Shown here: piece by piece, positions 4,536 to 63,465 of the stretch
Numbering within the stretch: the first letter of the stretch is position 1
Layout: every line of letters starts with the position of its first letter
NCBI GenBank assembly: GCA_030684405.1
Contig: JAUXYA010000014.1
Span: 1-64,000 of the forward strand
Reading direction: 5' to 3'
DNA from: Burkholderiales bacterium
GTDB lineage: Bacteria; Pseudomonadota; Gammaproteobacteria; Burkholderiales; SG8-41
DNA length: 64,000 nt
The notes under the pieces: model-generated
The model's input: only the letters and a program-made list of their open reading frames with translations
Told to the model about the DNA's origin: nothing
The model's database searches: none
Translations under genes and position numbers: made by a program

Positions 4536-4594
4536 GTTATGGATTCTCCCATGATCTTCGATGATTGGCGACCCTGAACTATGAGATTCCTTGC

Positions 4595-5299: not shown

Positions 5300-5300
5300 G

Positions 5301-6011
5301 ATGCTGCCGCTGGAGCTCGACCGCCTGTCCTTCAGTGTCGGCAGCACGCCGATCATCGAGGACATCTCCGTCCGCATCGAAGCCGGTCCGCGGACGATCA
5401 TTCTCGGCCCCAACGGTGCCGGCAAGAGTGTGCTGATGCGCCTCTGCCACGGGCTGCTGCAGCCCACCGCCGGCCGCATTGTCTGGCACGGCCTGCGCAA
5501 TGGCGATCCGCGCCGCCATCAGGCGATGGTGTTCCAGCGCCCGGTGATGCTGCGTCGCTCCGCGCTGGCGAACGTGGTCTACGGTCTTGCGCTGGCCGGC
5601 AAATCCCGGCGCGCAAGCGAACTGCGCGCGATGGATGTGCTGGAAGTGGTGGGGTTGGCCCAGCATGCCGGTCGGCCGGCGCGGGTGCTCTCCGGCGGCG
5701 AACAGCAGCGGCTGGCACTGGCGCGCGCCTGGGCGCTGGGGCCTGATGTGCTGTTCCTCGATGAGCCGACGGCCAATCTTGATCCGGCATCGACCCAGGA
5801 CATCGAGAACATCATCCAGGCGATCCATGCCTCGGGCACCAAGATCATCATGACCACCCACAACCTCGGCCAGGCGCGGCGCCTGGGGGACGAGGTGCTG
5901 TTCATCAACAAGGGTTTGCTGATGGAGCAGGCGCCGATCGAACGTTTTTTCAGGGAACCTGCTTCAGCCGAAGCGGGCGCATTCATCAAAGGAGAACTGC
6001 CATGGCACTGA
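5301..6011 (+). CDS. tupC: Tungstate ABC transporter ATPase TupC
   Basis: A ~236-residue ABC ATPase. It shows Walker A LGPNGAGKSVLM, signature LSGGEQQRLALARA, Walker B VLFLDEPTANLD and H-loop MTTHNLGQARRLGDEVLF. An in-frame ATG at 5292 exists, but GGAGG at 5286-5290 is properly spaced (10 bases) only for ATG 5301. It energises TupB for tungstate (and possibly molybdate) uptake. The 3' end overlaps tupA by ten bases, indicating translational coupling. Confidence 0.88.
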   Translation: MLPLELDRLSFSVGSTPIIEDISVRIEAGPRTIILGPNGAGKSVLMRLCHGLLQPTAGRIVWHGLRNGDPRRHQAMVFQRPVMLRRSALANVVYGLALAGKSRRASELRAMDVLEVVGLAQHAGRPARVLSGGEQQRLALARAWALGPDVLFLDEPTANLDPASTQDIENIIQAIHASGTKIIMTTHNLGQARRLGDEVLFINKGLLMEQAPIERFFREPASAEAGAFIKGELPWH

Positions 6012-12427: not shown

Positions 12428-12479
12428 GGCCCGCAGGGCAACTGGTAATATGGGTGCCATTCGTTGTGATTGTGAATCC

Positions 12480-12983
12480 ATGAAAATTTTCGGCTTCGCC
12501 GGTTATTCCGGCAGCGGCAAAACCACACTGATCGAAAAACTGATCCCGCTGTTCGTGCGGCGCGGCCTGAAAGTCTCGCTGATCAAACACGCGCATCACA
12601 CCTTTGATGTCGATCAGCCGGGCAAGGACTCCTTCCGTCACCGCCACGCCGGTTGCAGTGAGGTGCTGGTGACGTCATCGCGGCGCTGGGCACTGATGAG
12701 CGAACTGCGCGGTGCACCCGAGCCGACCCTGAATGAACAGATTTCACGCCTGTCCCCCTGCGACCTGCTGCTGGTCGAGGGCTTCAAGCATGAACATATC
12801 CCGAAGCTGGAGGTGTATCGCGCGGAGGTCGGCGAGTCGATGATCCATCCGCACGACAGCAATATCGTCGCCATCGCCAGCGATGCCAAGATCGATACCC
12901 CGTTGCCGCAACTGGATCTGAATGCACCGGACACGATTGCGGCCTTCATCCTCAAACAGGTCGGTCTGGGGCAGGGGACATGA
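12480..12983 (+). CDS. mobB: Molybdopterin-guanine dinucleotide biosynthesis adaptor MobB
   Basis: 167 residues with an N-terminal P-loop GYSGSGKTTL (residues ~7-16), SLIKHAHHTFDVDQPGKDSFRHRHAG and LLLVEGFKHEHIPKLEVYR, all MobB hallmarks. MobB is a GTP-binding helper of MobA in attaching GMP to Mo-molybdopterin. No mobA is seen in the window. Start ATG 12480 is chosen, since the ten codons before it do not match. It overlaps moaD by four bases. Confidence 0.93.
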   Translation: MKIFGFAGYSGSGKTTLIEKLIPLFVRRGLKVSLIKHAHHTFDVDQPGKDSFRHRHAGCSEVLVTSSRRWALMSELRGAPEPTLNEQISRLSPCDLLLVEGFKHEHIPKLEVYRAEVGESMIHPHDSNIVAIASDAKIDTPLPQLDLNAPDTIAAFILKQVGLGQGT

Positions 12984-13234
12984 TCACGCTGCTGTATTTC
13001 GCGCGGCTGCGTGAAGCGCTGGGCACCGGGCGCGAGGAACTGGCTTTGCCGGCGGACGTGACGACGCTGGGTGCCTTGCGCAGTCATCTGGCTCAGCGCG
13101 GCGACGCCTGGGCGAAGGAAATGGCCGGGGGCCGCAATCTGCGTGCTGCGGTGAATCAGGATGTGGCGATGCCCGACACGCCAATCAAAGACGGCGATGA
13201 GGTGGCATTTTTCCCGCCGGTGACCGGAGGCTGA
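12980..13234 (+). CDS. moaD: Molybdopterin synthase sulfur-carrier subunit MoaD
   Basis: 84 residues, a ubiquitin-like fold ending in the obligatory Gly-Gly (FFPPVTGG) that carries the thiocarboxylate. ITLLYFARLREALG at the N-terminus is typical. It donates sulfur to precursor Z together with MoaE in the cytoplasm. It overlaps mobB and is four bases upstream of moaE. Confidence 0.95.
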   Translation: MITLLYFARLREALGTGREELALPADVTTLGALRSHLAQRGDAWAKEMAGGRNLRAAVNQDVAMPDTPIKDGDEVAFFPPVTGG

Positions 13235-13238
13235 GGCC

Positions 13239-13709
13239 ATGAGCGTGCGCATCCACGAGCAGGATTTCGACGTCAGTGCCGAGATGGCCGCGATGCGCCG
13301 CGGCAATCCGAAGATCGGCGCCATCGCCAGCTTTGTCGGCGTGGTACGCGACATCAATGAAGGCGACAGCATCGCGACGATGACGCTGGAGCATTACCCC
13401 GGCATGACCGAAAAGGCGATCACCGAAATCATCGACCAGGCGCGCAGCCGCTGGGAAGTGCTGGATGCGCTCGTGATCCACCGCGTCGGCACGCTCAAAC
13501 CCACCGATCAGATCGTGCTGGTGATCGTCGCCAGCACGCATCGCGGCGACGCCTTCGCCGCCTGCGAATTCATCATGGATTACCTGAAGACCAAAGCGCC
13601 GTTCTGGAAAAAGGAAATCACGCCGCAGGGCGCGCGCTGGGTGGATGCGCGTGTCGTTGATGACCGGGCAGCGCAACGCTGGGAGCAAGGCAGCAAGAAG
13701 GGGCAGTAA
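13239..13709 (+). CDS. moaE: Molybdopterin synthase catalytic subunit MoaE
   Basis: 156 residues. IGAIASFVGVVRDINEGDSI, LEHYPGMTEKAI, ALVIHRVGTLKPTDQIVLV and YLKTKAPFWKKEI match MoaE, with the conserved lysines near the FWKKE motif forming the active site with the MoaD C-terminus. It converts cyclic pyranopterin monophosphate to molybdopterin and is the last gene of the Mo/W operon by spacing. A 144-base gap follows before the next gene. Confidence 0.95.
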   Translation: MSVRIHEQDFDVSAEMAAMRRGNPKIGAIASFVGVVRDINEGDSIATMTLEHYPGMTEKAITEIIDQARSRWEVLDALVIHRVGTLKPTDQIVLVIVASTHRGDAFAACEFIMDYLKTKAPFWKKEITPQGARWVDARVVDDRAAQRWEQGSKKGQ

Positions 13710-52125: not shown

Positions 52126-52128
52126 AGA

Positions 52129-52142
52129 TTGACGTAGATCAA
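52129..52142 (+). promoter_or_regulatory. FNR/Anr-type box
   Basis: TTGACGTAGATCAA matches the FNR/Anr palindrome TTGAT-N4-ATCAA at nine of ten defined bases. It is centred ~42 bases before the DksA-like ATG at 52178. With the usual -41.5 position a transcript would start next to that ATG, giving a leaderless mRNA or a downstream start at ATG 52223. Confidence 0.6.
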
Positions 52143-52177
52143 AACCTTACATTCACCTTCGCAGCACCATTCGTCAT

Positions 52178-52573
52178 ATGAACACACTGACTGAACTTCA
52201 AATTACATCCCTGAAAGACTGGATGTCCAAGCGCAAAAGCAATCTGCTGGAAGAAATCCGCGAAGTTTTGGCGCGTTCCGGTAATGCGCACCACGCAGAA
52301 CTGGTGGGTGGCGTCGGCGACATGGGCGACGAAGCTACGGCGAGTCTGTTACGCGACATCTCCGAAGCTGAAGTGCTGCGCGATATCGGTGAGGTGCGGG
52401 ATATTGTCGCGGCAGAGCAGCGGATCACAGACGGCCGCTATGGCCTATGCATCGATTGCGGCGAGCCGGTAGCCTACGAACGCCTGAAAGCCTATCCCAG
52501 CGCCAAGCGCTGCATGCCTTGCCAGCAGCATCGGGAAAAAACCCGCGCGCCCTCGAAATACACCGGGCACTGA
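52178..52573 (+). CDS. DksA/TraR-type zinc-finger protein
   Basis: 131 residues. An N-terminal coiled coil (KSNLLEEIREVLARS) and a C-terminal C4 zinc finger (CIDCGEPVAYERLKAYPSAKRCMPCQ) are typical of DksA/TraR proteins, which bind the RNA polymerase secondary channel. It is shorter than classical DksA, so it looks like a TraR/DksA2-like member. There is no clear Shine-Dalgarno before ATG 52178; a second ATG at 52223 would cut the coiled coil short. An FNR-type box lies just upstream. Confidence 0.88.
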   Translation: MNTLTELQITSLKDWMSKRKSNLLEEIREVLARSGNAHHAELVGGVGDMGDEATASLLRDISEAEVLRDIGEVRDIVAAEQRITDGRYGLCIDCGEPVAYERLKAYPSAKRCMPCQQHREKTRAPSKYTGH

Positions 52574-52853
52574 TTCCGCGCCAGTGGCCTGGCGAACCCC
52601 GTGTTAAAAGCGGAGCCGTCATGCTCCGCCGCCTGACCGCGGCGCTCACGGAAAGCGCCGCGATTCCCGCATGAGCAATACCAGAAATACAAAACCTGCC
52701 AAAGGACAGGGTGCCGTGCGTGCCTGGTGCAAACTCAACCGTTACCGAGCGCTGAGTTCAGCCGCAGATAGAATTATGCTGTGGCATTTGAGCACACGCG
52801 CTCAAAGACTCGGCATCCTTTAATCAGGACAACGCGGGATTCAAGTTTCCAGC
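52574..52853. other. Intergenic, 280 bases, no convincing gene
   Basis: It contains a perfect hairpin GCGGAGC-CGTCAT-GCTCCGC at 52610-52629 without a T tract, just after the DksA-like gene. It may stabilise the transcript end. The rest shows nothing I can support. Confidence 0.5.
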
Positions 52854-53246
52854 TTACTTTAACAGGGCTTCGAAAGATTGCGGCGTGAAGCCCTGCATGC
52901 GCCGTTCTCCCACCAGTATGAGGGGCACGCCGTTACCGTTGAGTGCGCGAAAACTCTCGAGATTCGTCGCTGAGGCTTCGATATCGTATTCGATATAGCT
53001 GAACTGATGGCGCTTGAAATACTCGCGCGCCTTTTTGCAGTATGGGCACCAGCGGGTGCTGTACATGATTACGGGGGTTTTAATGTACTGGCCATGGCCC
53101 TCAGCTACTCCCGGGCTGGAGAAATAGTCTCGGGCGGCAGGCAGCGCACCCACCAGCAGGGTTAGCACCACAACAGCAGTCAGCGGGTATAACCGTGGCT
53201 TGGCACCGAAATGGAACTTTCGCAAATAGGCGCCGACTCGACCCAC
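52854..53246 (-). CDS. Membrane-anchored glutaredoxin
   Basis: 130 residues. One N-terminal transmembrane segment (LTAVVVLTLLVGALPAA, residues ~22-38) and a short linker precede a glutaredoxin domain with CPYC active site (YSTRWCPYCKKAREYFKRH) and the GNGVPLILVGERRMQGF substrate-binding cis-Pro loop. It would reduce disulfides or glutathionylated proteins at the membrane; orientation is not certain, but a Grx facing the periplasm would be unusual. Confidence 0.88.
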   Translation of the reverse strand: MGRVGAYLRKFHFGAKPRLYPLTAVVVLTLLVGALPAARDYFSSPGVAEGHGQYIKTPVIMYSTRWCPYCKKAREYFKRHQFSYIEYDIEASATNLESFRALNGNGVPLILVGERRMQGFTPQSFEALLK

Positions 53247-53630
53247 GGATTTCTTCCTTTCCTGCCGAACTGAACTGCGTGGAACTGCACCGTAATCATT
53301 AGTTTAGCACTGCACGAAAAGGCCCTTGGCGCAAAGCGCCTAGGGCTGAGATACCGCCAATCCAGAAGGGGAGTATCGATCAGCGGTTGGGTCGCATATG
53401 TTTTCACCGCTTCATGAGCGGTTCTGTTCGCTATCACACATACCATTGCGTGGGCTCTGGGTATGAGCATGCCAAGGATGCTCACCCTAATCCGCTATAC
53501 CGACCCGCAGACTTTCGGTATAGCGATCCCAGATAGACAAAAGCCTGGTCGGGGAGGCAGGGCTAAGCAGTCCGTTGTTCCTGGTCAGCTTTCACCAGCC
53601 TGGTGGTCAATTCGAGGCCGACGTCAACAA
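53247..53630. other. Intergenic, 384 bases, no gene; contains one copy of a dispersed repeat
   Basis: ORFs here are short and lack plausible protein character. The block 53497-53570 is one copy of the repeat listed separately. GGCGCAAAGCGCC at 53329 is a small palindrome. Confidence 0.55.
53497..53570. repeat. Dispersed repeat, copy 1 (copy 2 at 54609-54681)
   Basis: The ~74-base block starting ATACCGACCCGCAGACTTTC recurs at 54609-54681 in the same orientation with only scattered differences. Each copy begins with a hairpin (ATACCGA...TCGGTAT) and ends with AGGCAGGGCTAAG or GTGGCAGGGCTAAG preceded by AAAGCC. The two copies flank a glutaredoxin-like gene and a small membrane gene and stop just outside the tRNA-Asn element. 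Confidence 0.8.
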
Positions 53631-54023
53631 TCATGCCTCCGCAAAACGCCCCCGCAGATAGGTCATGATTTTTTCTGAATCGTAGAGCCAATGGCTATTG
53701 CCGGCTTGATCGGTAATCTTCAGGCAGGGCACTTTGACCTGTCCGCCATGTTGCAACAACTCCTGCCGGTCACGGCCTTCGTGTTGCGCGTCAATGCGGT
53801 GGATTTTCAATGACAGTCGGCTGATTTCCTGCCGGACCTTGATGCAGAAAGGGCAGGTCCTGTACTGGTACAGAACGAGCGAGCGGCATTGTGCATCCAC
53901 CTTTTCCTGCGTTGGCTGAGAGCGGCTCAATCCTTTGGGCCGGGTGATCGTTTCCTTGAGCAGCATCACCGGACCGAGGACGACGCGCAGTGTCTTGAAG
54001 AAGAGCCTGATAAAAAATTTCAT
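53631..54023 (-). CDS. Glutaredoxin/thioredoxin-fold protein with N-terminal hydrophobic helix
   Basis: 130 residues. A hydrophobic or amphipathic N-terminus (FFIRLFFKTLRVVLGPVMLL) is followed by LVLYQYRTCPFCIKVRQEISRLSLKIHRIDA with a CPFC redox motif, and a cis-Pro region QVKVPCLKI. It belongs to the glutaredoxin/GST-N type. Its partner is unknown. It is on the same strand as the other glutaredoxin but 384 bases away. Confidence 0.85.
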   Translation of the reverse strand: MKFFIRLFFKTLRVVLGPVMLLKETITRPKGLSRSQPTQEKVDAQCRSLVLYQYRTCPFCIKVRQEISRLSLKIHRIDAQHEGRDRQELLQHGGQVKVPCLKITDQAGNSHWLYDSEKIMTYLRGRFAEA

Positions 54024-54155
54024 AAATTAAGAGCATCTCTGATATTACGCTACACGAGGCTGTGGGCAATACCGATTTTCACACCGAGACCTCGTGACGG
54101 CGGGGGGACCTGCTGATTGGCGGGCAAGTTGGCAGACAAAGCAAGAAATCCAACC

Positions 54156-54374
54156 CTACTTTTTGCTACTTTCAAGGCTAGGCCACTTAGAAAACGCAAG
54201 GAAATACAAGAGAATGATATTTGCGAGTGGCACCACCATAAACAGACTCAACCACTTTGAGTATCCAGCTTTAGAGAAGATAAACCAAAACGGTAAAATG
54301 ATCAGTGCTGCCATTACCAACATCATGAACGGACCAAAGAACCACATTTCTGAACCATGCATTGTTTCATACAT
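54156..54374 (-). CDS. Small two-helix membrane protein
   Basis: 72 residues with two transmembrane segments (FGPFMMLVMAALIILPFWFIF and WLSLFMVVPLANIILLYFLAF) and a short charged tail. GGAG precedes the ATG by six bases. The core FSKAGYSKWLSLFMVVPLANI resembles a widespread small-membrane-protein pattern. The gene is more AT-rich than its surroundings. Function unknown. Confidence 0.65.
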   Translation of the reverse strand: MYETMHGSEMWFFGPFMMLVMAALIILPFWFIFSKAGYSKWLSLFMVVPLANIILLYFLAFSKWPSLESSKK

Positions 54375-54608
54375 AATATTTCTCCTTTGCTTCTTATGTT
54401 GAACCTATCTAACGTGTACTAGCTGACTTTTTTAGTTGCCAAATTTAGGTGGCATTTTTAGTTAGCAGAAATGTCACCTATTCCGAGTGCTGTCTATGCC
54501 CCCGTTCGAGTAACACGGGGGCCTACCGATACAAAACCCGGATACCCAGAGAATATAACCCCGTCTTTGTCTGGCGCATAAATCCACAGGAAGGCCCCGC
54601 AGGCCCCG

Positions 54609-54681
54609 ATACCGACCCGCGGACTTTCGGTATAGCGATCCCAAAAACGCAAAAAGCCCGGCTGGGGTGGCAGGGCTAAGT
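54609..54681. repeat. Dispersed repeat, copy 2
   Basis: Direct copy of 53497-53570, with the same hairpin head ATACCGA...TCGGTAT and the same tail ...GGCAGGGCTAAG. It ends 23 bases before the left attachment site of the integrated element. Confidence 0.8.
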
Positions 54682-54704
54682 GCAAGAAACGCTACGAAAT
54701 TCGG

Positions 54705-54749
54705 TGGCTCCCCGACCTGGGCTCGAACCAGGGACCTGCGGATTAACAG
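54705..54749 (-). repeat. attL: 45-base copy of the 3' part of tRNA-Asn
   Basis: The 45 bases are identical to 63390-63434, the 3' portion of the intact tRNA-Asn gene from the anticodon loop to the encoded CCA. Outside this block the sequences diverge at once on the 5' side of the tRNA. This is the displaced attachment site produced by integration into the tRNA 3' end. Confidence 0.95.
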
Positions 54750-54785
54750 ATTTAATCAGCCATCAACGAAATCAGGCACTTATGA

Positions 54786-54798
54786 GCTAAGTCATTGA
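54786..54798 (+). repeat. 13-base arm-type repeat near attL (GCTAAGTCATTGA)
   Basis: The same 13 bases occur in the same orientation at 63370-63382 near the other end of the element. The left copy starts 37 bases inside attL, the right copy ends eight bases before attR. Such terminal repeats are typical of integrase or excisionase arm sites. Confidence 0.5.
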
Positions 54799-54927
54799 AT
54801 TAACTTACTATCGTTTGGCCTCTTGTATCCTTTTTTTGCAGGGTTTAGTATCCGGTCTGGATACATGGATACACGGCGGACCCTAGGATAACTCCCCAGC
54901 GGCCCGCGAACCTTAAGAGGTGACGCG

Positions 54928-56292
54928 ATGAAGGCATACAGTTTTAGCAGGGCGGGAATCCTGGCGATGCCGCTACCGGAGAAGAACAATCAAGTTCTAT
55001 ATCCCGACCCTGAAACCCGGTTTCATTATGTCCGGGTGACTTCCAACGGTGCGCGGTCTTTTGTGGTGGACCGGAATACGCCCCGAGGCCGCATACGCAT
55101 CACGCTGGGGCAGGCTGGCACGGATGCCTTGACCGCAGAGCAAGCCCGCAAGAGCGCCTTAATCGTCCTTGGACTGATTGAACAGGGATTTACAGCGGGA
55201 CAGATCAAGGACCGGCTTGCAAGGGTTGATGAGCGCGTTCCGGAGGGCGCTGTAACGCTGGGGCAGGTGTTTGAGGAATATCTGCAGGACCGCACCGGCA
55301 AGCTGTCTGAGCGCACCGTATCTGATTACCGCCGGCTGATGGATTCCCACCTGAATGACTGGCGGCACAAGCCCGTTGAAACCATTGACGAGGCCGCAGT
55401 AAGGGCGAAATTCCATAGCATCAAATCCCCGAGCAGGGCGAATTACACGATGCGCCTGCTACGGGCTCTACTGAACCTTGGCAAGAGCATCAACAGTGAC
55501 ACCGGGACCCCGGTTGTTTCGATAAATCCGGTCCAGATACTTTCTAACCGGAAACTTTGGCACCGGGAGGAACCGAAGCGCGAGGTCATAGACTTAGCGG
55601 CACTTCCGGCATGGTGGCGGGCGGTGGAGAAGCTAGGCGCGCCTCAGAAGGTCAAGCGGGATGCCGCGCATCGATTCGAGAAGGGCAGCGCGGCCCTTAA
55701 CAGCAACGGGGAAACGGTTAGGGATTTTCTGCAATTCCTGCTGCTAACCGGATTGCGCCGCAGTGAGGCCGCGACCCTTCAGTGGTCCAGCGTGGATTTG
55801 AAGGCTAAGCTATTCACGGTCCAGATCACAAAGAACCGGGAACCGCATACGCTCCCTCTGTCCGATTACCTTTTGAATATGCTCAAGCGCCGCTTGGCCC
55901 TGAGCGACAAGGAGACAGACCCCGTTAAGAAACCTTTTGTGTTTTCTGGTGAGGTGGGACCGCTGGCGGAACCAAAGAAGCAGATCAAGAAGGTTGTAAC
56001 CGCATCGGGCGTTAAGTTTTCAAGCCATACGCTACGGCGGACATTCGCCAGCATCGCGGAATCGCTGGATATTCCTTATCTGGCGCTGAAGCGACTGCTA
56101 AACCACAAGGCGCAGGATGTAACGGGGCGGCACTATACCGTGATCGGAGCAGAGCGCCTGAGGGACCCCATGCAAAAGATAACCCGATTTACCCTAAAGG
56201 CCGCAGGCAAGGGGCGACAAACAGTTTCGCCGTTTGTTAGGTCGTCGCATGATACGACTACCACATCTAGATGGGCTGAGGGGCTGACATGA
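54928..56292 (+). CDS. int: Tyrosine-recombinase integrase
   Basis: 454 residues. The N-terminal arm-binding part covers ~1-110, a SAM-like core-binding domain (LGQVFEEYLQDRTGKLSERTVSDYRRLM) ~110-205, and the catalytic domain ~220-430. Active-site residues are R277 (LTGLRRSEAATLQW), K302 (VQITKNREPHTLPL), H367-R370 (SHTLRRTFAS), H393 (LLNHKAQD) and nucleophile Y403 (TGRHYTV). It catalyses site-specific integration at tRNA-Asn. It is the first gene inside attL and overlaps the next gene by four bases. Confidence 0.97.
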   Translation: MKAYSFSRAGILAMPLPEKNNQVLYPDPETRFHYVRVTSNGARSFVVDRNTPRGRIRITLGQAGTDALTAEQARKSALIVLGLIEQGFTAGQIKDRLARVDERVPEGAVTLGQVFEEYLQDRTGKLSERTVSDYRRLMDSHLNDWRHKPVETIDEAAVRAKFHSIKSPSRANYTMRLLRALLNLGKSINSDTGTPVVSINPVQILSNRKLWHREEPKREVIDLAALPAWWRAVEKLGAPQKVKRDAAHRFEKGSAALNSNGETVRDFLQFLLLTGLRRSEAATLQWSSVDLKAKLFTVQITKNREPHTLPLSDYLLNMLKRRLALSDKETDPVKKPFVFSGEVGPLAEPKKQIKKVVTASGVKFSSHTLRRTFASIAESLDIPYLALKRLLNHKAQDVTGRHYTVIGAERLRDPMQKITRFTLKAAGKGRQTVSPFVRSSHDTTTTSRWAEGLT

Positions 56293-56807
56293 AGCAAAAA
56301 GTGAAAAATAAAATTAAGCCGTTGACCGCCGAGGAGATTCTGCGCGCAGATGATCGGCCTGAATCTGTTAAGCAAATGGACGGTAAGAAGGGGCGCAAGC
56401 CCAAGTGGAGGGCGGTTGATATTGACGATGAAATATCGGTAGCGGTAGCCGTTGAGTTAGAGAGGCGACTGCAGGGTATTCCAATCGCAAGGCAACGGAC
56501 CCCTGATTTTATTTTCGAGAAAGTTGCAGCAGAAATTGCAGCAGAAAAGATTATGTCTCTGCGATCGGTGCGGCGGTTTTTCACCACACATAGAGCCGAG
56601 GCAATAAGGCTGGCGCGTATGACGCAAAGCATCCCGGAGCGCCGCAAGCTACTGGCGGAACTTGTGGGCATCTACGGCCCCGAGATTGCAAAACTGTCCG
56701 CAGTTAAATGCGATGCCATATTCCGGCTGCGGGAAGGTCTGAGTGTTAGCGAAACTCTCGAATTTGATAGGGCAATTGAGTTTTTAATTATTGGCCAGAA
56801 AGCATGA
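56289..56807 (+). CDS. Unknown basic protein of the element
   Basis: 172 residues, Lys/Arg-rich. A flexible N-terminus (KQKVKNKIKPLTAEEILRAD) precedes a mostly helical body with LRSVRRFFTTHRAEAIRLAR. No catalytic motif or membrane segment is visible. The start ATG overlaps the integrase stop, so it is translated with it. It could bind DNA or the integrase, but this is only charge and position. I do not recognise the family. Confidence 0.7.
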   Translation: MKQKVKNKIKPLTAEEILRADDRPESVKQMDGKKGRKPKWRAVDIDDEISVAVAVELERRLQGIPIARQRTPDFIFEKVAAEIAAEKIMSLRSVRRFFTTHRAEAIRLARMTQSIPERRKLLAELVGIYGPEIAKLSAVKCDAIFRLREGLSVSETLEFDRAIEFLIIGQKA

Positions 56808-56853
56808 AAATCGCGGTGTCAAATGCTCGTAAATCCCAAAAGGAGAGTACGAG

Positions 56854-57063
56854 ATGCAGACAACGCAAGACAGTAACCGCTGGATTCTCGATTACGAAGT
56901 CGAGCAGGCAACAGGCGGGCGCATTACCGCATCGCGGTTGCGCCATGACCGCGTAAAACAACAGATATTTCCCTTTCATCGCGTGGGCCGCTCTGTCTTT
57001 TACGACATGGCGGAAATCAACGCACTGATTGAGGCATCACGCTACGGCGGGAAGGCGGCTTAA
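56854..57063 (+). CDS. Small winged-helix/excisionase-like DNA-binding protein
   Basis: 69 residues. The pattern ITASRLRHDRVKQQIFPFHR followed by VGRSVFYDMAEINALIEASR resembles the Xis/AlpA-like winged helix, with a beta-hairpin wing (FHRVGRSVFY) and a trailing helix. AGGAG lies eight bases before the ATG. In satellites such proteins serve as excisionase or as activator of the int operon (AlpA-like). It abuts the primase gene without a gap. Confidence 0.7.
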   Translation: MQTTQDSNRWILDYEVEQATGGRITASRLRHDRVKQQIFPFHRVGRSVFYDMAEINALIEASRYGGKAA

Positions 57064-57885
57064 ATGCTGGCCGACATGCTGGCGCTGCCTTCAGGTCAAC
57101 ATCGTTTGCCCTGTCACGCTTGCAACAAAGGAGCGAGAGATACCGCCCTTTCCGTCCAGCGGCACGACGATCACGCAGTTTATGTTTGTCATCGCTGCGG
57201 AACCCGTGGCCGAGTTAATGAAAAAGGCGAGATACGCGCAGGACGCGCTGTTAAGCCCTCGGTGATACCAGAGGCGCACGAAACCCTTTCATCGTACTGG
57301 CGGGCGATCTGGCGCGACCTGAATCAGATTTCAGCAGGAACCACAGCGCATAAGTATCTGGTGGCGCGTGGGTGTGAAGTTCCGCCATCTGACGGTGATC
57401 TGCGCTGCACCGAAAACCTTAAACATCCTTCCGGATACCAAGGCCCTGCAGTCGTCGGGTTGATAACGGACGTATTGACCGGCGAACCCCTCAGTTTGCA
57501 CCGGACATGGATTAATTCAGACGGAAGCAAGGCCGATCTAAACCCGCCAAGGCTTCTACTTTCCAAGCATCGGAAAAAAGGCGGTGCAATTCGATTGTTC
57601 CCCGAGGTAACGCAAGGACTAGCTATAGCCGAGGGCATCGAAACCGCCCTTGCCGCGGCTAAAACTTTCCGCCCCGTATGGTCTGCGATTGATGCAGGAA
57701 ATTTGGCGGAACTCCCTTTGTTAGATGGGATTGAGTCATTAACGATTTTTGCCGATCACGACCCTGCCGGTATGCGAGGTGCAGCGGATTGTGCTGCGCG
57801 ATGGGCTGAAGCAGGACGTGAAGTAAGGATGTGGGTTTCAAATGAGGGAGGGCGAGACTTTAACGACGAGGTAATTAATGCTTAG
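57064..57885 (+). CDS. Zinc-ribbon Toprim primase
   Basis: 273 residues. An N-terminal zinc ribbon (C17, C20 in CHACNKG and C42, C45 in CHRCGTRG) precedes the Toprim fold with E190 in GLAIAEGIETALAA and D231-H-D233 in IFADHDPAG, the metal-binding triad of DnaG/gp4 type primases. A DUF7146-like region lies between (DLRCTENLKHPSGYQGPAVVGLI). It probably makes primers on element DNA. ATG follows the previous stop directly, and the gene overlaps the helicase gene by eight bases. Confidence 0.9.
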   Translation: MLADMLALPSGQHRLPCHACNKGARDTALSVQRHDDHAVYVCHRCGTRGRVNEKGEIRAGRAVKPSVIPEAHETLSSYWRAIWRDLNQISAGTTAHKYLVARGCEVPPSDGDLRCTENLKHPSGYQGPAVVGLITDVLTGEPLSLHRTWINSDGSKADLNPPRLLLSKHRKKGGAIRLFPEVTQGLAIAEGIETALAAAKTFRPVWSAIDAGNLAELPLLDGIESLTIFADHDPAGMRGAADCAARWAEAGREVRMWVSNEGGRDFNDEVINA

Positions 57886-59368
57886 CACAGTCGAAAAACT
57901 CAAGCGGGACGTAGATGCCCTCCCTGTTTATCGCAGTTCAAAAGAAGTCGAGACTTTTTTCCGGCGATATAACGCGCCAGCGGGGCATGTGCTTTCGTGG
58001 CGTGAACGGATGCATAAGAAAAATGCGCCCAATGTAAGGCCGGAGGAGACGATATCTAAGCCAGCCGCAACGGCATCCGACGATTTCCCGCAATGCAGGG
58101 CGCGGGCTTGGACCCTGCCCGAAATGCTGACTGAATGTGTTTTCCTGCAGGATGGCGCGCAGGTTACAACGCTTTCTAAGCCAGACATTGCGCTGTCATT
58201 CCAGAATTTTAGAACAATGACAGCTGCAAGTTTTGAGCGCACCGATGCTGGAAAAAAAATACTTATCGCCGACCAATGGGCTGCACATCCCGAGCGGCTG
58301 GAGGTTTTTGGTAGAACTCACGCCCCAGGTCGTCCAGCAATTGCCGCGGACCCTCTCGGCAGAATTTGCGTAAATTTTTGGCGAGATATTCCCCACACTG
58401 TGCCGCGAGATTGGGAAGGGCGATGCAAACTCTTTGTTGACCACATCGCATTTTTAATTCCCGCCCCTTTCGAGCGTGAATTGTTTATGGATTGGCTGGC
58501 GCACATCGAGCAAAAGCCCGGAGAGCGGCCACACTTTCACTTTTTGATGCGAACAGATGGCGCGCAGGGTATCGGGCGCAATTATCTGGCCGAAGTGATG
58601 GCTCGCATGTGGCCTGGTCGGGTGTCTCTATCCGTTGACCTGATGCGGATTCTTGACGGTGGATTCAATGGGCTGGTGGCAGGCTCTCTGGTGGCCGTGG
58701 TTGACGAGATTCACGCAGACCAAGCACATGCATCCCCGCGAAGGGTTGCGCAGGCCCTTAAGTCTGAACTCACTGCATCGGTGCGAAATGTCAGGCCGAA
58801 GTATGGGCGCGAATATACGGAATTCTGCGCAACCCGCTGGCTGATGTTTTCCAACCATGTGCGCGCCTTGCCCTTACCCAAAGAGGATCGGCGATTGGTG
58901 GTTATCAAAAATCCTGAAGTAGCGAAGGACTCGGATTACTACCGGACCATATACGCGGCCTTAAACGATGGCGAATTTATTGCATCCGTTCGGGAATTCC
59001 TGCGACAGCGGGATTTATCAGACTTCAATCCCGGACTTCATGCGCCATTGAATGATGCGAAGTCCGCAATGATTTTAGCAACCACATCGGCAGCGGACCT
59101 AGCTGCAGCAGAGGTGATTCAACAATGGCCCGCCGATTTGATTACTTCCGGCGAACTCGCCAATGAATTAGCCGACGAGGACGGAAAGAGGCCGACCGGC
59201 TCAATGCTGAGAGCAATTGCAATTGAAGCAGGAATGGTTCCGGGCAGAGGGCAGATTAAGTTAGGCGGTAATCCCGTGCGCTACTGGATTCTGCGCAATT
59301 CCCAAATCTGGCAATCAGCCAACCATATGCAGATGCGTACCGAACTTAAAAAGGTAACGGGCAGGTAA
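57878..59368 (+). CDS. D5/DUF5906-like replicative helicase
   Basis: 496 residues. The central AAA-like ATPase part shows a P-loop-like RTDGAQGIGRNYLAEVMARM (residues ~225-244, with R234 where a Walker A Lys is usual), Walker B LVAVVDEIHAD (~271-281), sensor-1 LMFSNHVRALPL and an arginine finger KEDRRLVVI. The C-terminal ~100 residues form a winged-helix region (IQQWPADLITSGELANELAD). With the upstream Toprim primase it forms a primase-helicase pair. Its last codons lie inside the iteron origin. The missing Lys may reflect a family variant or reduced ATP binding. Confidence 0.83.
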   Translation: MLSTVEKLKRDVDALPVYRSSKEVETFFRRYNAPAGHVLSWRERMHKKNAPNVRPEETISKPAATASDDFPQCRARAWTLPEMLTECVFLQDGAQVTTLSKPDIALSFQNFRTMTAASFERTDAGKKILIADQWAAHPERLEVFGRTHAPGRPAIAADPLGRICVNFWRDIPHTVPRDWEGRCKLFVDHIAFLIPAPFERELFMDWLAHIEQKPGERPHFHFLMRTDGAQGIGRNYLAEVMARMWPGRVSLSVDLMRILDGGFNGLVAGSLVAVVDEIHADQAHASPRRVAQALKSELTASVRNVRPKYGREYTEFCATRWLMFSNHVRALPLPKEDRRLVVIKNPEVAKDSDYYRTIYAALNDGEFIASVREFLRQRDLSDFNPGLHAPLNDAKSAMILATTSAADLAAAEVIQQWPADLITSGELANELADEDGKRPTGSMLRAIAIEAGMVPGRGQIKLGGNPVRYWILRNSQIWQSANHMQMRTELKKVTGR

Positions 59369-59474
59369 CAGGTAACGGCCAGTAACGGCAAATCCTATAA
59401 ACCCCATGGAAATATTTACATAGAAGTATATGAAAACGGCGTTACCAGGCGTTACCCGTTACCTAGCCGTTACC
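59353..59474. other. Candidate replication origin: eight iterons around an AT-rich core
   Basis: Four 7-mers GGTAACG or one-base variants occur at 59353, 59364, 59371 and 59381 on the plus strand. Four inverted CGTTACC copies start at 59440, 59450, 59457 and 59468. The 50-base centre (59388-59437) is strongly AT-rich. This symmetric layout behind a primase-helicase pair is the architecture of satellite or plasmid origins. The left iterons overlap the helicase stop, and the right ones end just before the next gene's RBS. Confidence 0.75.
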
Positions 59475-59487
59475 CGAGGATTAATGA

Positions 59488-59679
59488 ATGACTACTGATT
59501 ACCGCTTACTGTTTGCAAAAAAAAGATTTACCGCTGCCTGCATCGCAGCCTTGTCAGGTAAGCCCGACGCACAAGACCGCGCTGCTGCTGCATTGGCTGA
59601 GATTAACGAGGCACGGAAGGAACAAGAGGCAGGCCCGAGGCCAAAGCCTTACGGGTGGCATGGGTGGCGGCTTTGCTGA
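59488..59679 (+). CDS. Small protein of the element, unknown
   Basis: 63 residues, helical, with an Ala-rich stretch (CIAALSGKPDAQDRAAAALAEI) and a Trp/Pro-rich tail. GAGGA sits seven bases before ATG 59488, directly after the iteron array. No known family. It could be autoregulated by Rep binding to the iterons because of its position. Confidence 0.55.
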   Translation: MTTDYRLLFAKKRFTAACIAALSGKPDAQDRAAAALAEINEARKEQEAGPRPKPYGWHGWRLC

Positions 59680-59828
59680 CGAGAAAAAATATATGCAGGA
59701 AAAATTTAGCGAGAGAGAGCGGAAAAAATGTCGGCGGGGGAGTTCGTAAGTTTTGGTGCGGCGCGCCAGAAACCGGACTGTTAGACCTAAAAAGCTCATT
59801 TTGAGTATCCCATGTGAGAGGCAAGACG

Positions 59829-60170
59829 ATGAATGCAATACCGATGATTAAACAGAAATTTGACGAACCGCCGGACTACCTAGTGGACCCTGAGCGGTCA
59901 CTGTGGATACGGCTGCAGCGCGACTACGGCCTAACGGATGCGCCGGCGCTGGTCCTGCTTGAACAGTTATGCCGGAACCTGAGCCTTGCGCGCGAATGTC
60001 GCGAGCGTGTCGAGGCTGATGGCAAGGTTACGGCGAATGGGCGAGAGCATCCATTGCTGAAAGTCTGGCGGGATGCCGAGAAACAAGCCTCTAGTGCGCT
60101 GAAGTCACTAAATTTTGATTTGGAGCCGCTAAGAGATGGACCGGGGCGTCCACCTGGCCCGAGGAAATAA
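59829..60170 (+). CDS. P27-like small terminase subunit
   Basis: 113 residues. YGLTDAPALVLLEQLCRNLSLARECRERVEADGKV and GREHPLLKVWRDAEKQASSALKSLNFDLEPL match the P27 family of small terminases, where a helical domain recognises packaging sites on DNA. Its tail is Pro/Arg-rich. A matching large terminase is absent from the element, which suggests it would redirect a helper's large subunit. GAGG lies upstream of ATG 59829, and it abuts the next gene. Confidence 0.75.
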   Translation: MNAIPMIKQKFDEPPDYLVDPERSLWIRLQRDYGLTDAPALVLLEQLCRNLSLARECRERVEADGKVTANGREHPLLKVWRDAEKQASSALKSLNFDLEPLRDGPGRPPGPRK

Positions 60171-60398
60171 ATGCCGACTAAGCGAAAAAACCTTACACGG
60201 AAAAGCACCGTTCGGATTACGCGGGATGCGCTAGAGGCATTTGAGAAAGGGGATCATGCTTTGCATCGTGCGCTAGGTCTTAAGCCGTGGGAAATCAGTC
60301 CGCTAGATGCCACTGGTTCCTGTCCGTATCCGGCCAGCACTGCCGGCGCTGCATCGTGGCCTCAGGCCGTCGAGTTACGAAAACTTTTGGAAGGGTAA
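60171..60398 (+). CDS. Small basic protein, unknown
   Basis: 75 residues. The basic N-terminus (PTKRKNLTRKSTVRITRDAL) and the motif GDHALHRALGLKPWEISPLDA resemble short phage proteins next to terminases. The ATG follows the terminase stop directly. Function unknown. Confidence 0.5.
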   Translation: MPTKRKNLTRKSTVRITRDALEAFEKGDHALHRALGLKPWEISPLDATGSCPYPASTAGAASWPQAVELRKLLEG

Positions 60399-60403
60399 AA
60401 CTT

Positions 60404-60664
60404 ATGGGAACCATTGACCGCCCGGACTTTGCCGCGCTAATCCGCAACAGCGCAAAAATGATTACTGACGTTCTGGAACAGTCTGCACATCCGGCGCGGC
60501 AGAGCATCGAGGCTGCATTAGCTGGCGGATCGACGTTATCGGTCCGATGCCAAGTTCTGCCAAAGCCGCGCCTACTTTTGGAGATTCACGAACCCGAAGG
60601 CGCACGGCACGAATTGTTAGAAATTAAATTGTCTGCACCGCCAACCCTTGAAAGGAGTCATTGA
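60404..60664 (+). CDS. Small protein of the element, unknown
   Basis: 86 residues with MGTIDRPDFAALIRNSAKMI and VRCQVLPKPRLLLEIHEPEG. It is acidic/neutral, lacks membrane or catalytic motifs, and is preceded by GGAAGGG. It ends one base before the next gene's ATG. No recognised family. Confidence 0.55.
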   Translation: MGTIDRPDFAALIRNSAKMITDVLEQSAHPARQSIEAALAGGSTLSVRCQVLPKPRLLLEIHEPEGARHELLEIKLSAPPTLERSH

Positions 60665-60665
60665 T

Positions 60666-60884
60666 ATGTTTGGAACCTTAATGCGCAAAGAAGCGCCCCA
60701 AGACGAACCGCAAGAGGAAAAGGAAAACCTACCAGATGCGCGGGACATTTTTTACGCGCTGGAGGATTTTCTAAAAATTAACGCGGGGCTGTCTCGTAAC
60801 GGATCGAAGGCCGGAGCGCGGTCGATCATGCGACTGTTGAGGCGTCACGGCGTGCGTATGACGTCACCGCCAGAGCGATGGTAA
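60666..60884 (+). CDS. Small charged protein, unknown
   Basis: 72 residues. An acidic linker (DEPQEEKENLPDARD) is followed by a basic helix (SKAGARSIMRLLRRHGVRM). AAGGAG is upstream of ATG 60666. A protein of this charge pattern in front of a capsid gene could be a scaffold or capsid-size factor, which is speculation from position. Confidence 0.55.
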   Translation: MFGTLMRKEAPQDEPQEEKENLPDARDIFYALEDFLKINAGLSRNGSKAGARSIMRLLRRHGVRMTSPPERW

Positions 60885-61169
60885 AAACCGTACTTATTCA
60901 TTGATTAGTAAAATCTATCGTGGTACGATTTTGCATAGCTTTTGGGCAATGCGTGCGCAGCGGGATGCTGTTGCAAGCGGCCCTAAAGCCAAGACCAAAC
61001 GCGCTTTGCGGGATGCGGCGCGGCTGGTGCGTGCGGGATGCTCGTGCTCAAGCGGTCGGCTTCAAACTCGGCAACGTGCCTTGCGCGGGATGCGCAACAA
61101 CGAACCGGGCAATTTCCGCCAACGTCATGGTGACGCGGGCGAAGCTAACCATTTTTAAGGATCATTGAC
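60885..61169 (+). other. 285-base leader before the capsid gene with repeated GCGGGATGC motifs
   Basis: Short ORFs here have poor protein character. GCGGGATGC occurs at 60960, 61008, 61033 and 61085, spaced roughly by multiples of 25. The copies at 60960 and 61033 are similar over ~20 bases. It is preceded by a promoter-like pair and ends with the capsid RBS, so it may be a structured 5' leader or a packaging or Rep binding region. Confidence 0.5.
60901..60929 (+). promoter_or_regulatory. Candidate sigma-70-type promoter for the capsid gene
   Basis: TTGATT (60901) and TACGAT (60924) are separated by exactly 17 bases; each keeps four of six consensus bases. It stands in front of the ~240-base leader of the capsid gene. 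Confidence 0.35.
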
Positions 61170-62285
61170 ATGAGCACAATTAATCCGCATGAAGTTGTAG
61201 CCGACATTAAGTCTGGCATTGATAAGATCAAAACGAAGGTTAACAGTCTGGATGACCGCCTTTTGGCCGTCGAACAGCAAGGCATTGCACCGCCTGCCGG
61301 CTTTGGTGGATTGCAAGGCAAGACTACCGCTGCCGCCAAGCTGCTGACTGATTCGCCTGAGATACAAGCCTTTGCAGCGCGCAAGCTGTCGTCGGCTGGT
61401 GCATCTATCCCGCTTTCGGTATTCGCGGCGACGACGAGCGACAACGCGACGAACCCGAGTTATCGGATTCCCGGCATTGCCGCACATCCGACCCAGCGCG
61501 TTTATCTGCGCGAACTGTTGCCATCGTTGCCGGTAGGCTCTGCGACATTTGAATTCACCCGCGAAAGCTCAAGCCTTGATGACACGAAGGCGGCGGCGCA
61601 GTGGGATGGTTCCGATTCTCCGGGCTTCTCCGAAGGCGCGGCAAAAAAAGAATCGAACTTCGGTTTTCAGGCAATCACGATGCCGGTTTCGACTGTCGCG
61701 CATTTTACGAAAGTATCGCGGCAAGTGATGAACGATAACGCCCGTCTGCAACAGTTCATTGGCGAGCGTATGCGTTCTGGTGTCGAACTTCGCGCAGAGC
61801 AAGACCTCATCAACGGAACCGGCGCAAGCGGTCAAATGTCTGGACTTTTGAAGGCTGGAAACTTTACGAGTTTCACGCCGGCAACGGGCGATGACCGTGT
61901 TGATAGTTTGCGACGTGCGAAGCTGGCGTTAGAGGCTGCGGACTATTTTTGCGGGTTGTATATCATGAACCCTGCTGACGTTGCTGCGATTGAACTGCAG
62001 CGCGACAACGAAGAACGATTCCTGATTGGCAGGCCGCTTGAGGCGTCGATGCCGCAAATTTGGGGTACTCCGATTTACTGGTCAACGAAGATTGCACCCG
62101 GCCAGTTTGTTGCGTTGGACCTCGCTGCGGTCATGGTTGGTATCCGCGAGGAGATCGATCTGCGTTTCAGCGAGAGCGACGAGGACGATTTTCAAAGGAA
62201 TTTGATTAGCGTCCGTGCCGAGGCTCGCATGGGGCTGGGTGTGCTTCAACCTGGCGGCGTGCGCGCTGGTGCGTTGCTGATCTAA
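61170..62285 (+). CDS. HK97-fold phage major capsid protein
   Basis: 371 residues. A short N-terminal delta/scaffold-like helix (residues ~1-40) precedes the HK97 core: LPVGSATFEFTRESSS, FGFQAITMPVSTVAHFTKVSRQVMNDNARLQQFIGERMRSGVELRAEQDLINGTGASGQMSGLL (E-loop to spine region), and a C-terminal A-domain with VVRA-type ISVRAEARMGLGVLQPGG. AAGGA precedes the ATG. It is the only virion structural gene in the element; no portal, protease or tail genes are nearby. Capsid assembly would need helper functions, or this protein alters the helper's capsid. Confidence 0.9.
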   Translation: MSTINPHEVVADIKSGIDKIKTKVNSLDDRLLAVEQQGIAPPAGFGGLQGKTTAAAKLLTDSPEIQAFAARKLSSAGASIPLSVFAATTSDNATNPSYRIPGIAAHPTQRVYLRELLPSLPVGSATFEFTRESSSLDDTKAAAQWDGSDSPGFSEGAAKKESNFGFQAITMPVSTVAHFTKVSRQVMNDNARLQQFIGERMRSGVELRAEQDLINGTGASGQMSGLLKAGNFTSFTPATGDDRVDSLRRAKLALEAADYFCGLYIMNPADVAAIELQRDNEERFLIGRPLEASMPQIWGTPIYWSTKIAPGQFVALDLAAVMVGIREEIDLRFSESDEDDFQRNLISVRAEARMGLGVLQPGGVRAGALLI

Positions 62286-62293
62286 TGGAGATC

Positions 62294-62319
62294 GGGCCGG
62301 CCTTCGGGCTGGCCCTTTT
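62294..62319 (+). terminator. Rho-independent terminator after the capsid gene
   Basis: GGGCCGGCC-TTCG-GGCTGGCCC with a UUCG-type tetraloop followed by TTTT, eight bases after the capsid stop. Confidence 0.85.
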
Positions 62320-62324
62320 CAAAT

Positions 62325-62522
62325 ATGAGATACCGAAACCCGGCAGTACACGAATCAATGATCCGCCAACAAGCTGCGGATCGGAATTTGAAAATTGAGC
62401 GGCGCGGCAATCTGTGGCGGCTGTATGGTCAATGCGTCGATCTTGTATTCAAGGATTTTTCTTGCGTCGAACCATCGGACCTGCGGCCAGTGTTGAACGT
62501 AAAGGCGCAGCTGTATAACTGA
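62325..62522 (+). CDS. Small protein, unknown
   Basis: 65 residues (RNPAVHESMIRQQAADRNLK at the start, CVDLVFKDFSCVEPSDLRPV near the end). There is no obvious RBS before ATG 62325, and it lies right after the capsid terminator, so expression is uncertain. A terminator follows 20 bases later. No family recognised. Confidence 0.4.
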   Translation: MRYRNPAVHESMIRQQAADRNLKIERRGNLWRLYGQCVDLVFKDFSCVEPSDLRPVLNVKAQLYN

Positions 62523-62542
62523 ATCGAACTCCTGCAGCATTT

Positions 62543-62569
62543 GGCCGGCCTAGTGCTGGCCTTTTTTTT
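62543..62569 (+). terminator. Rho-independent terminator
   Basis: GGCCGGC-CTAGT-GCTGGCC stem followed by eight T residues, located between the small ORF and the thermonuclease gene. Confidence 0.88.
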
Positions 62570-62585
62570 GGCGGCATAATGCGCC

Positions 62586-63041
62586 ATGCTTAAATTCATC
62601 TTGCTGTTTTTCCTTGCGACTCCTGTCTACGCTTTTACGGGAAAGGTTGTTTCCATTGCTGACGGCGACACACTGACAGTACTGGTTGACCGTTCACAAG
62701 TCCGAATCAGGCTTGCGGATATTGATGCACCCGAGAAAGGGCAGGACTTTGGCGACAAGTCTAGACAATCGTTAGGTGAACTCTGCCACGGCAAGACCGC
62801 GACCGTGTCCGGTGGAGAGCAAGACCGCTTTGGCCGAACCTTGGGAACAGTAAACTGCGACGGAGTTGACGCTAATGCCGAACAGGTTAGGCGTGGTATG
62901 GCATGGGTGTTTGACCGCTACGCACCCAAGGATTCACCGTTATATTCGATTCAGGACGCTGCCAAAGCCTCTAGGCGGGGCTTGTGGAGTGATCCCAACC
63001 CGACACCCCCTTGGCAGTTCCGGCGCGGCATAAGGCGCTGA
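62586..63041 (+). CDS. Secreted thermonuclease (staphylococcal-nuclease family)
   Basis: 151 residues. A signal peptide (FILLFFLATPVYA) precedes the SNase fold, with VVSIADGDTLTVLVD, the catalytic RIRLADIDAPEKGQ (Arg and Glu), and the second Arg in DRFGRTLG. The end resembles the usual DAAKASRRGLWSDPNPTPPWQFR. It degrades DNA/RNA outside the cytoplasm. In a satellite it might attack phage DNA or be carried cargo. It overlaps the next ORF by 31 bases. Confidence 0.9.
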   Translation: MLKFILLFFLATPVYAFTGKVVSIADGDTLTVLVDRSQVRIRLADIDAPEKGQDFGDKSRQSLGELCHGKTATVSGGEQDRFGRTLGTVNCDGVDANAEQVRRGMAWVFDRYAPKDSPLYSIQDAAKASRRGLWSDPNPTPPWQFRRGIRR

Positions 63042-63382
63042 TAAAGATACGTGCTGAGAGGCGGTGCGGGGAGATGCTGTCGCAAATGGAAATGCGGAAT
63101 GGTGGACATGCTGCAAAGGCTCTGTCGAATCTACCGACAGAGTTACCACCCACCCTCTCAGACATCGGCCTAACCCGCGACCAATCCAGCCGCTACCAGC
63201 AATTAGCTTCCATGTCCGATGAGCATTTTGAAGCCGCAGTTGAAACCGCCAAGAATTCAACGGGCGAAGTTACTACCGATTTCACGCTGCGAGAGGCTGC
63301 GTTTTTAAGAGTCACCCAGCCCGGATACATAACGGAGACATGGGGAAGGCGCGTTTTTGCTGAAACTGCGCTAAGTCATTGA
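63011..63382 (+). CDS. Phage-type KIRAERR/GDQSS-like protein, probably N-terminally truncated
   Basis: 123 residues from a TTG codon. LIKIRAERRCGEMLSQMEMR and LSDIGLTRDQSSRYQQLASMSDEHFEAAVE match a family of phage proteins whose N-terminal ~60-80 residues are missing here. The body starts inside the thermonuclease reading region, so a deletion may have joined the two genes. It ends eight bases before attR. Function unknown; possibly a remnant. Confidence 0.5.
   Translation: MAVPARHKALIKIRAERRCGEMLSQMEMRNGGHAAKALSNLPTELPPTLSDIGLTRDQSSRYQQLASMSDEHFEAAVETAKNSTGEVTTDFTLREAAFLRVTQPGYITETWGRRVFAETALSH
63370..63382 (+). repeat. 13-base arm-type repeat near attR (GCTAAGTCATTGA)
   Basis: Identical and co-oriented with 54786-54798. 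It overlaps the last codons of the truncated phage-type ORF and lies eight bases from the tRNA-Asn CCA end. Confidence 0.5.
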
Positions 63383-63389
63383 TTTTATT

Positions 63390-63465
63390 TGGCTCCCCGA
63401 CCTGGGCTCGAACCAGGGACCTGCGGATTAACAGTCCGTCGCTCTACCGACTGAGCTATCGGGGA
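63390..63465 (-). tRNA. tRNA-Asn (anticodon GTT)
   Basis: On the minus strand the 76 bases fold as a standard tRNA: acceptor TCCCCGA/TCGGGGA, D-arm GCTC...GAGC, anticodon stem CGGAC/GTCCG-like with loop TGTTAAT giving anticodon GTT, T-arm CCTGG-TTCGAGC-CCAGG, and an encoded CCA. The 3' 45 bases form attR of the integrated element. The gene stays functional because the element supplies an identical 3' end. Confidence 0.97.

Follow-up and report, generated by a model that had tools for sequence, protein, structure and literature searches.

A compact element of 8,685 bp (excised length) is integrated at a tRNA-Asn gene in a 64-kb window, the window being positions 1 to 64,000 of contig JAUXYA010000014.1 (assembly GCA_030684405.1) from a bacterium of the order Burkholderiales. 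This element is probably a phage satellite related in plan to the phage-inducible chromosomal islands (PICIs), bearing a replicon of its own together with a Ccm-like capsid gene. It is called PICI-like, since its layout matches the known plan while its AlpA-type regulator is putative and its induction predicted. An earlier note on this DNA had described a tRNA-Asn satellite with its own replicon, and this description is supported by the anatomy of the element, by empty sites in the same genus and by its relatives.

The element is bounded by the perfect 45-bp direct repeats that the earlier note had reported, one at 54705-54749 (attL, a repeat of the 3' part of the tRNA gene) and one at 63390-63434 (attR). 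The right copy lies inside tRNA-Asn(gtt), which occupies 63390-63465 on the minus strand. A subterminal repeat at 54783-54806 is 83% identical to 63367-63390 and is a possible arm site for the integrase or an excisionase. The G+C content per kb is 51.6-57.3% over 55-63 kb, compared with 50.8-66.4% (mostly 57-66%) over 1-54 kb. All genes of the element are on the plus strand, and the integrated copy is intact-looking.

A right-flank query matched 20 of 21 same-genus genomes, the element's own included, and 18 stretches were fetched. An uninterrupted site, with left flank, a single att copy and the remainder of the tRNA gene, was found in genomes G003, G010 and G012; in G010 and G012 the left side consists of just a repeat of some 90 bp adjoining att, which also occurs elsewhere. 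By BLAST, att is preceded in G003, G004, G006 and G020 by a left flank that is longer, corresponding to the window from 50001 to about 52127-52580, and BLAST coordinates give the same empty-site order in G004, G006 and G020, where the att copy matches at 91%. Several same-genus stretches bear a second or isolated att-like match (e.g. L207, L208 and L217-L221), and in G007 (L207) a different integrase adjoins att. Thus, the tRNA-Asn gene is probably an integration hot spot for other elements in the genus. The finding that the earlier note had named as refuting a satellite, a full prophage with the same genes at the same site, was not encountered: among the 18 same-genus stretches at att-like sites, only the integrase was matched (33% identity over 132 residues, in G007). 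As a separate observation on the left flank, the stretch 52580-54704 holds two small open reading frames (ORFs), glutaredoxin-like by eye. In G003, no BLAST match to this stretch lies between the conserved flank and the tRNA-Asn gene. Several relatives have, next to tRNA-Asn, a repeat that in the window lies at about 53497-53568 and 54608-54704.

The left half of the element is an integration and replication module. A tyrosine integrase of 454 aa (54928-56292; PF00589, 8.3e-21; phrog_1, 2e-46) is overlapped at its end by a gene for a 172-aa protein without a family match (56289-56807). A small protein of 69 aa resembling helix-turn-helix (HTH) regulators follows in the AlpA/excisionase position (56854-57063), and then a Toprim primase of 273 aa with a DUF7146-Toprim_3 arrangement (57064-57885; DUF7146, 2.3e-17; Toprim_3, 9.4e-13; phrog_510, 2e-35) and a DUF5906 replicative helicase of 496 aa (57878-59368; PF19263, 1.8e-10). 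Directly after the helicase stop, GGTAACG-type iterons in one direction and CGTTACC-type iterons in the other flank an AT-rich core, with six exact CGTTACC copies within 59353-59474 (two on the minus and four on the plus strand). These inverted arrays (59352-59476) form a candidate replication origin. For the iterons of the origin named in the earlier note, a count over the whole window gave 10 CGTTACC matches where 3.45 were expected, a figure that 100 shuffles never attained. Two circular relatives (L025 and L027) likewise have repeated 9-mers after the helicase gene. A primase 52% identical to that of the element was found at a contig edge in genome G672, and no match to the element helicase was found in that genome.

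The right half carries two virion-related genes. The first encodes a TerS of 113 aa (59829-60170) that resembles the P27/Terminase_4 type (PF05119, 5e-6 to 5.5e-6, 27.2 bits against a cut-off of 24.7; phrog_83, 1.3e-7 to 2e-7) and the TerS of viral contig L273 (1.2e-6). Its ATG start at 59829 is more likely than the longer GTG start at 59814. As a single query, this TerS found no close relatives in viral contigs and none in phage records. The second gene (61170-62285) encodes an HK97-type major capsid protein (MCP) of 371 aa (Phage_capsid, 2.1e-37). The earlier note had also stated that TerL, portal, protease and tail genes are missing, and further searches agree. A tblastn search of the element with reference proteins of related prophages, among which those from the prophage at L004 were confirmed by PHROGs, found neither TerL, portal, protease nor tape measure, and Pfam and PHROG scans of the element ORFs revealed no gene for TerL, portal, protease or tail.

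Residues 8-369 of the capsid protein align with the phiL7 head protein, and the protein also aligns with HK97- and D3-type capsids. An AlphaFold model built from 29 sequences had a mean pLDDT of 73.4 and a pTM of 0.63, and in a structure search with it the top hits were capsids of D3 and HK97, at TM-scores of 0.55-0.60 when normalised by query length. Family-3 encapsulin was rejected as an assignment (27.1 bits against a cut-off of 180). Residues K159, N344 and E351 align with K169, N356 and E363 of HK97, which we take to be the cross-link residues of that capsid; in the alignment, K, N and E stand in 53, 54 and 55 of 61 rows at these columns. The protein was further compared with 60 other MCPs, namely the 48 that could be extracted from 80 viral MCPs and 12 from phages and prophages. 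Its residues 130-165 span 36 positions against 25-27 in 58 of the 60, which amounts to an 11-residue insertion in the E-loop, where confidence in the model is low; the two remaining proteins, with 43 and 6 residues there, look like reading or alignment faults. The N-terminus has a delta-like domain, which would act as the scaffold domain of this MCP, and no protease was found in the element. As a single query, the MCP found no close relatives in viral contigs, and the best match found was 37% identical.

A repeat of a different kind, absent from the earlier note, is clustered between the two virion-related genes. The 9-mer GCGGGATGC occurs seven times in the window, always within the element and always on the plus strand: once in int (55656), once in terS (60068), once in the next ORF (60221) and four times as direct repeats at 60960-61093, upstream of the MCP gene. 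Whole-window shuffles, 100 in number, averaged 2.43 copies with a largest count of 9, and one of them reached seven. In 500 shuffles of the element, five copies was the ceiling for any 9-mer, and the maximum 9-mer count in six other 8.73-kb stretches of the window was five; some 9-mer was present four or five times within a span like 60960-61093 in 7 of the 500 shuffles. The four clustered copies occupy all three frames and thus are not protein repeats. An ORF over them (60901-61158) was not accepted as a gene; it starts with TTG, has no PHROG family and contains the four copies in all three frames. The array may serve packaging, TerS binding or regulation.

From these parts, we infer a satellite cycle. 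Infection by a helper phage, or its induction, would lead the integrase to excise an 8.7-kb circle, which the satellite primase and DUF5906 helicase would replicate from the inverted iterons downstream of the helicase gene. The satellite TerS would mark satellite DNA for the TerL of the helper, perhaps at the GCGGGATGC repeats near the MCP gene, and the satellite MCP, with its own delta-like scaffold domain, would co-assemble with the helper shell or replace it. Portal, protease, TerL, connectors, tail and lysis functions would all be provided by the helper. The proposed redirection of packaging and shell by TerS and MCP is plausible and consistent with what is described for two known satellites. 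Ccm of SaPIbov5 is 24% identical to the capsid protein of the helper and occupies pentamers, and it was seen cleaved even though SaPIbov5 has no protease (PMC8569155). PmCI172 encodes an MCP homologue and yields small heads of 38-39 nm, the cause of which is not proven in that account (PMC6092414).

The helicase leads to further elements with a comparable gene logic. Six plasmid records have a helicase match covering at least 80% of the query, with sizes of 8,712 (two records), 8,725, 8,873 and 8,955 bp and one record of 17,382 bp. The last (CP077066) was ruled out as an exact dimer, its two helicase copies being 8,944 bp apart. The records from Klebsiella and Moellerella (8,712 and 8,725 bp) are circles with what may be termed a shell kit. 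In Moellerella NZ_CP093253 there are an integrase, a scaffold protein (phrog_206, 4.9e-5), an MCP (phrog_247, 1.4e-88) and DUF5681, while in Klebsiella CP067839 there are an integrase, a scaffold protein (5.3e-5), an MCP (1e-90) and a terminase-like protein (phrog_3064, 1.3e-5). In these two circles (L026 and L028), no unassigned ORF exceeds 174 and 219 aa, respectively, which leaves no room for TerL or portal. Of the other records, E. coli CP058022 has a TerS (9.4e-12) and an HNH protein, and Proteus NZ_CP104987 (L025) has a tape measure in the PHROG scan. The HK97-type references used on the element gave no match in the plasmid records, a narrow test, as it missed the Proteus tape measure too. 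Two other elements of the same helicase family and size thus carry a shell kit from another capsid family.

These circles suggest a more general idea, which we put forward tentatively and consider doubtful as it stands: a recurrent satellite class of about 8.7-9.0 kb, in which a replicon with a DUF5906 helicase carries a shell kit (MCP, scaffold built-in or separate, and TerS) while motor, portal, protease and tail come from the helper. In Betaproteobacteria and Enterobacterales, one chassis would then have taken up unrelated capsid families, and a packaging limit would account for the near-constant size. The shared size is less telling, since the mean PICI size is given as 9.5 kb (PMC10803314). 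Nor does the helicase alone define such a class. A related helicase was found in 53 genome contigs and 80 kept viral loci, and a search of 33 of these loci (L041-L059 and L094-L107) with the window proteins gave no homologue of MCP or TerS (phmmer, 1e-3). The gene lists of 12 of the 33 were read by eye, and no virion gene was recognised in 9 of them; the PHROG scan of large ORFs found a tape measure in L054 and a TerL in L055. In L055 (Bradyrhizobium erythrophlei), the TerL (11733-13241; phrog_2, 5.3e-19) follows the related helicase, and inspection by eye showed no further head gene. Two further small circles with a related helicase have as their recognised virion gene a tape measure homologous to that of L025 (L094) and an annotated tail protein (L030, Vibrio pMP1).

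Of the alternative explanations, the one that survives best is that the element is a reduced capsid-forming PICI (cf-PICI), whose ancestor had a full head-packaging set and lost TerL, portal, protease and connectors, leaving it dependent on a helper. Its model is L273 (IMG/VR 3300001815_000321; 12.96 kb), which contains an integrase, a primase 41% identical to that of the element (7e-35), a portal, a protease-MCP fusion, a head-tail adaptor, TerL and a TerS and an MCP (1.2e-7) related to those of the element. This is nearly the gene content stated for cf-PICIs in PMC10690885, and the element may be a reduced cousin of L273. Against this, the helicase of L273 belongs to another family, its gene order (portal, MCP, TerS, TerL) differs, and the TerS and MCP similarities are low. 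We regard this origin as unlikely. It is compatible with a PICI-like satellite, and the likelihoods assigned to the two explanations therefore overlap.

The genomic context of related capsid genes, which unlike that of the element mostly includes TerL or portal, speaks for the PICI-like reading. In an order-level search, 13 of 399 genomes, the element's own included, had an MCP match at 1e-8, which yielded 14 MCP places besides that of the element. In the fetched stretch, 12 of the 14 had TerL and/or portal, and six of these twelve had themselves supplied the references. The exceptions were L269, where just a tape measure was found, and the 6.1-kb contig L005, whose MCP is a remnant. Similarly, in IMG/VR, TerL or portal was found in the fetched flank at 75 of 80 MCP loci (the best 80 of 506 confirmed), the other five being three contigs shorter than 5 kb, L286 with a protease and L333 with a tape measure. 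A second alternative is a deletion remnant of a full HK97-type prophage that lost TerL, portal, protease, tail and lysis genes and kept helicase, TerS and MCP. In its favour, the prophage L004 (G080) has, in this order, a primase-helicase, TerS, TerL, portal, protease, MCP and tape measure, and is colinear with the helicase, TerS and MCP of the element. The right end of the element holds what is probably a gene fragment (63011-63382; phrog_33995, 0.0028, positions 67-142 of 224), which also suits a remnant. However, the core genes are open, the att sites are intact and the capsid cross-link residues are kept; TerS and MCP are separated by three short ORFs and a directional 9-mer array; the MCP is only 31-35% identical to that of L004; and two 8.7-kb circles show the same gene logic with another capsid family. 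A deletion remnant therefore appears rather improbable. A separate observation concerns L271, a Rhodococcus plasmid (NZ_CP096036) with near-tandem copies of about 6.8 kb that contain an integrase, a replication initiator and an HK97-type MCP (phrog_10, 4.6e-27); the second MCP copy is short, and no motor or portal is annotated.

The weakest alternative, an integrated island or plasmid-like replicon that is not packaged and uses TerS and MCP only as anti-phage weapons to poison helper assembly, draws on the suppression of a helper by a capsid homologue (a ccm mutant gave phi12 titres raised by a factor of 10^6-10^7; PMC8569155) and on the helicase loci without a recognised virion gene, but is very unlikely, as TerS has no obvious use unless the element is packaged.

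Several observations weigh against a PICI-like satellite. The TerS call is weak and is the weakest of the family assignments, with 15.1 bits against a cut-off of 45.6 for NCBIfam sm_term_P27; the other families named in the earlier note (integrase, Toprim primase, helicase, HK97 capsid and thermonuclease) were confirmed more firmly. The same note had listed a xis-like gene, of which the ORF stands at the right place, but the 69-aa product has only sub-threshold matches to HTH_17 (E 0.036, 14.8 bits against a cut-off of 27) and to the excisionase family phrog_1840 (0.25). Its identity as AlpA is unproven, while its position fits. No iteron-like array stood out in L026 and L028, and the collections searched yielded no element closely matching this one over its whole length. 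In the element's own genome, no PF04860 portal and no PF20441 or PF03354 TerL was found (three families tried), and a helper was not identified. Finally, the ORF at 63011-63382 is a probable gene fragment and thus points to a past rearrangement at the right end.

The remaining features are small or lie downstream of the capsid gene. A 63-aa ORF (59488-59679) precedes TerS, and three others (60171-60398, 75 aa; 60404-60664, 86 aa; 60666-60884, 72 aa) follow it, the latter two with GGAAGGG and AAAGGAG upstream, which resemble ribosome-binding sites; none has a significant family match. A G+C-rich hairpin followed by TTTT (62294-62319, plus strand) was seen by eye after the MCP gene and was not listed by the terminator scan, which returned a terminator-like hairpin and T-run at 62543-62569 (plus strand); the scan found seven such sites, against 11.5 in shuffles. 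Between the two hairpins lies a 65-aa ORF without a family (62325-62522). A thermonuclease (SNase) of 151 aa with a start resembling a signal peptide by eye (62586-63041; PF00565, 1.5e-19) is probably cargo. A thermonuclease gene also lies near the MCP remnant of L005 (G145 contig, 4005-5863), as in the window, and L005 is possibly a decayed relative of the element.

If the element is a satellite of this kind, capsid-carrying PICI-like satellites would extend to a betaproteobacterial order, a group on which none of 15 listed papers, out of 103 matching ones, is centred. Searches of open-access paper listings brought up no account of such shell-kit circles. The new details are the shell-kit circles in Klebsiella and Moellerella, the 11-residue E-loop insertion and the directional 9-mer repeat. 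Further, the element offers a compact case for asking whether a satellite can substitute a shell of its own and still borrow portal and motor, which bears on the head parts that phages can interchange, and the E-loop insertion and the repeat array provide testable handles.

Several known satellites and other elements differ from the element in some of their features. P4-like satellites have capsid and regulatory genes of the sid/psu/delta type. None of these families was found in general Pfam and PHROG scans of the element ORFs, which included no dedicated search. PICMI, as described in PMC10803314, has no capsid-remodelling genes and integrates next to fis, whereas the element has an MCP and sits in tRNA-Asn. 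The cf-PICIs share the int-primase module and their own MCP and TerS with the element, and are reported to encode their own protease, portal, connectors and TerL (PMC10690885), none of which was found in the element. The Klebsiella CP067839 and Moellerella NZ_CP093253 circles share a DUF5906 helicase, a tyrosine integrase, an MCP and nearly the same size, but have a phrog_247 MCP and a separate scaffold gene and are circular plasmid records. SaPIbov5 Ccm resembles the element MCP in its HK97 fold, its N-terminal delta domain, the lack of a protease in the element that carries it and its divergence from phage capsids. In contrast, SaPIbov5 carries the cos site of its helper, has no TerS and has a known helper, and the element MCP has an E-loop insertion.

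The closest correspondence is with the Gram-negative PICIs, such as EcCICFT073 and PmCI172. According to PMC10111431, these have int, alpA, pri, an origin downstream of pri and mostly unidirectional genes in 10-20 kb; a major capsid gene is present in 21 of 29 reference elements and is dispensable for transfer; and genes for primase, SSB and DUF5906 proteins colocalize with mapped origins. AlpA markers include Phage_AlpA or HTH_17 (PMC10111431; PMC10803314), and some Gram-negative PICIs bear terS (PMC6092414). The earlier note's suggestion of an undescribed satellite type is not supported, because Gram-negative PICIs have this layout, usually with a capsid gene (PMC10111431), and this size (PMC10803314). 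The element itself, at 8,685 bp, is shorter than the 10-20 kb of the former account and near the 9.5-kb average of the latter, which places PICIs in many Firmicutes and Gammaproteobacteria, unlike the present host from a betaproteobacterial order. In common with the Gram-negative PICIs, the element has an integrase and att repeats at a specific chromosomal site, a gene in the regulator position, a primase and a DUF5906 helicase with the candidate iteron origin downstream, and a late region in which most virion genes are missing while MCP and TerS are carried.

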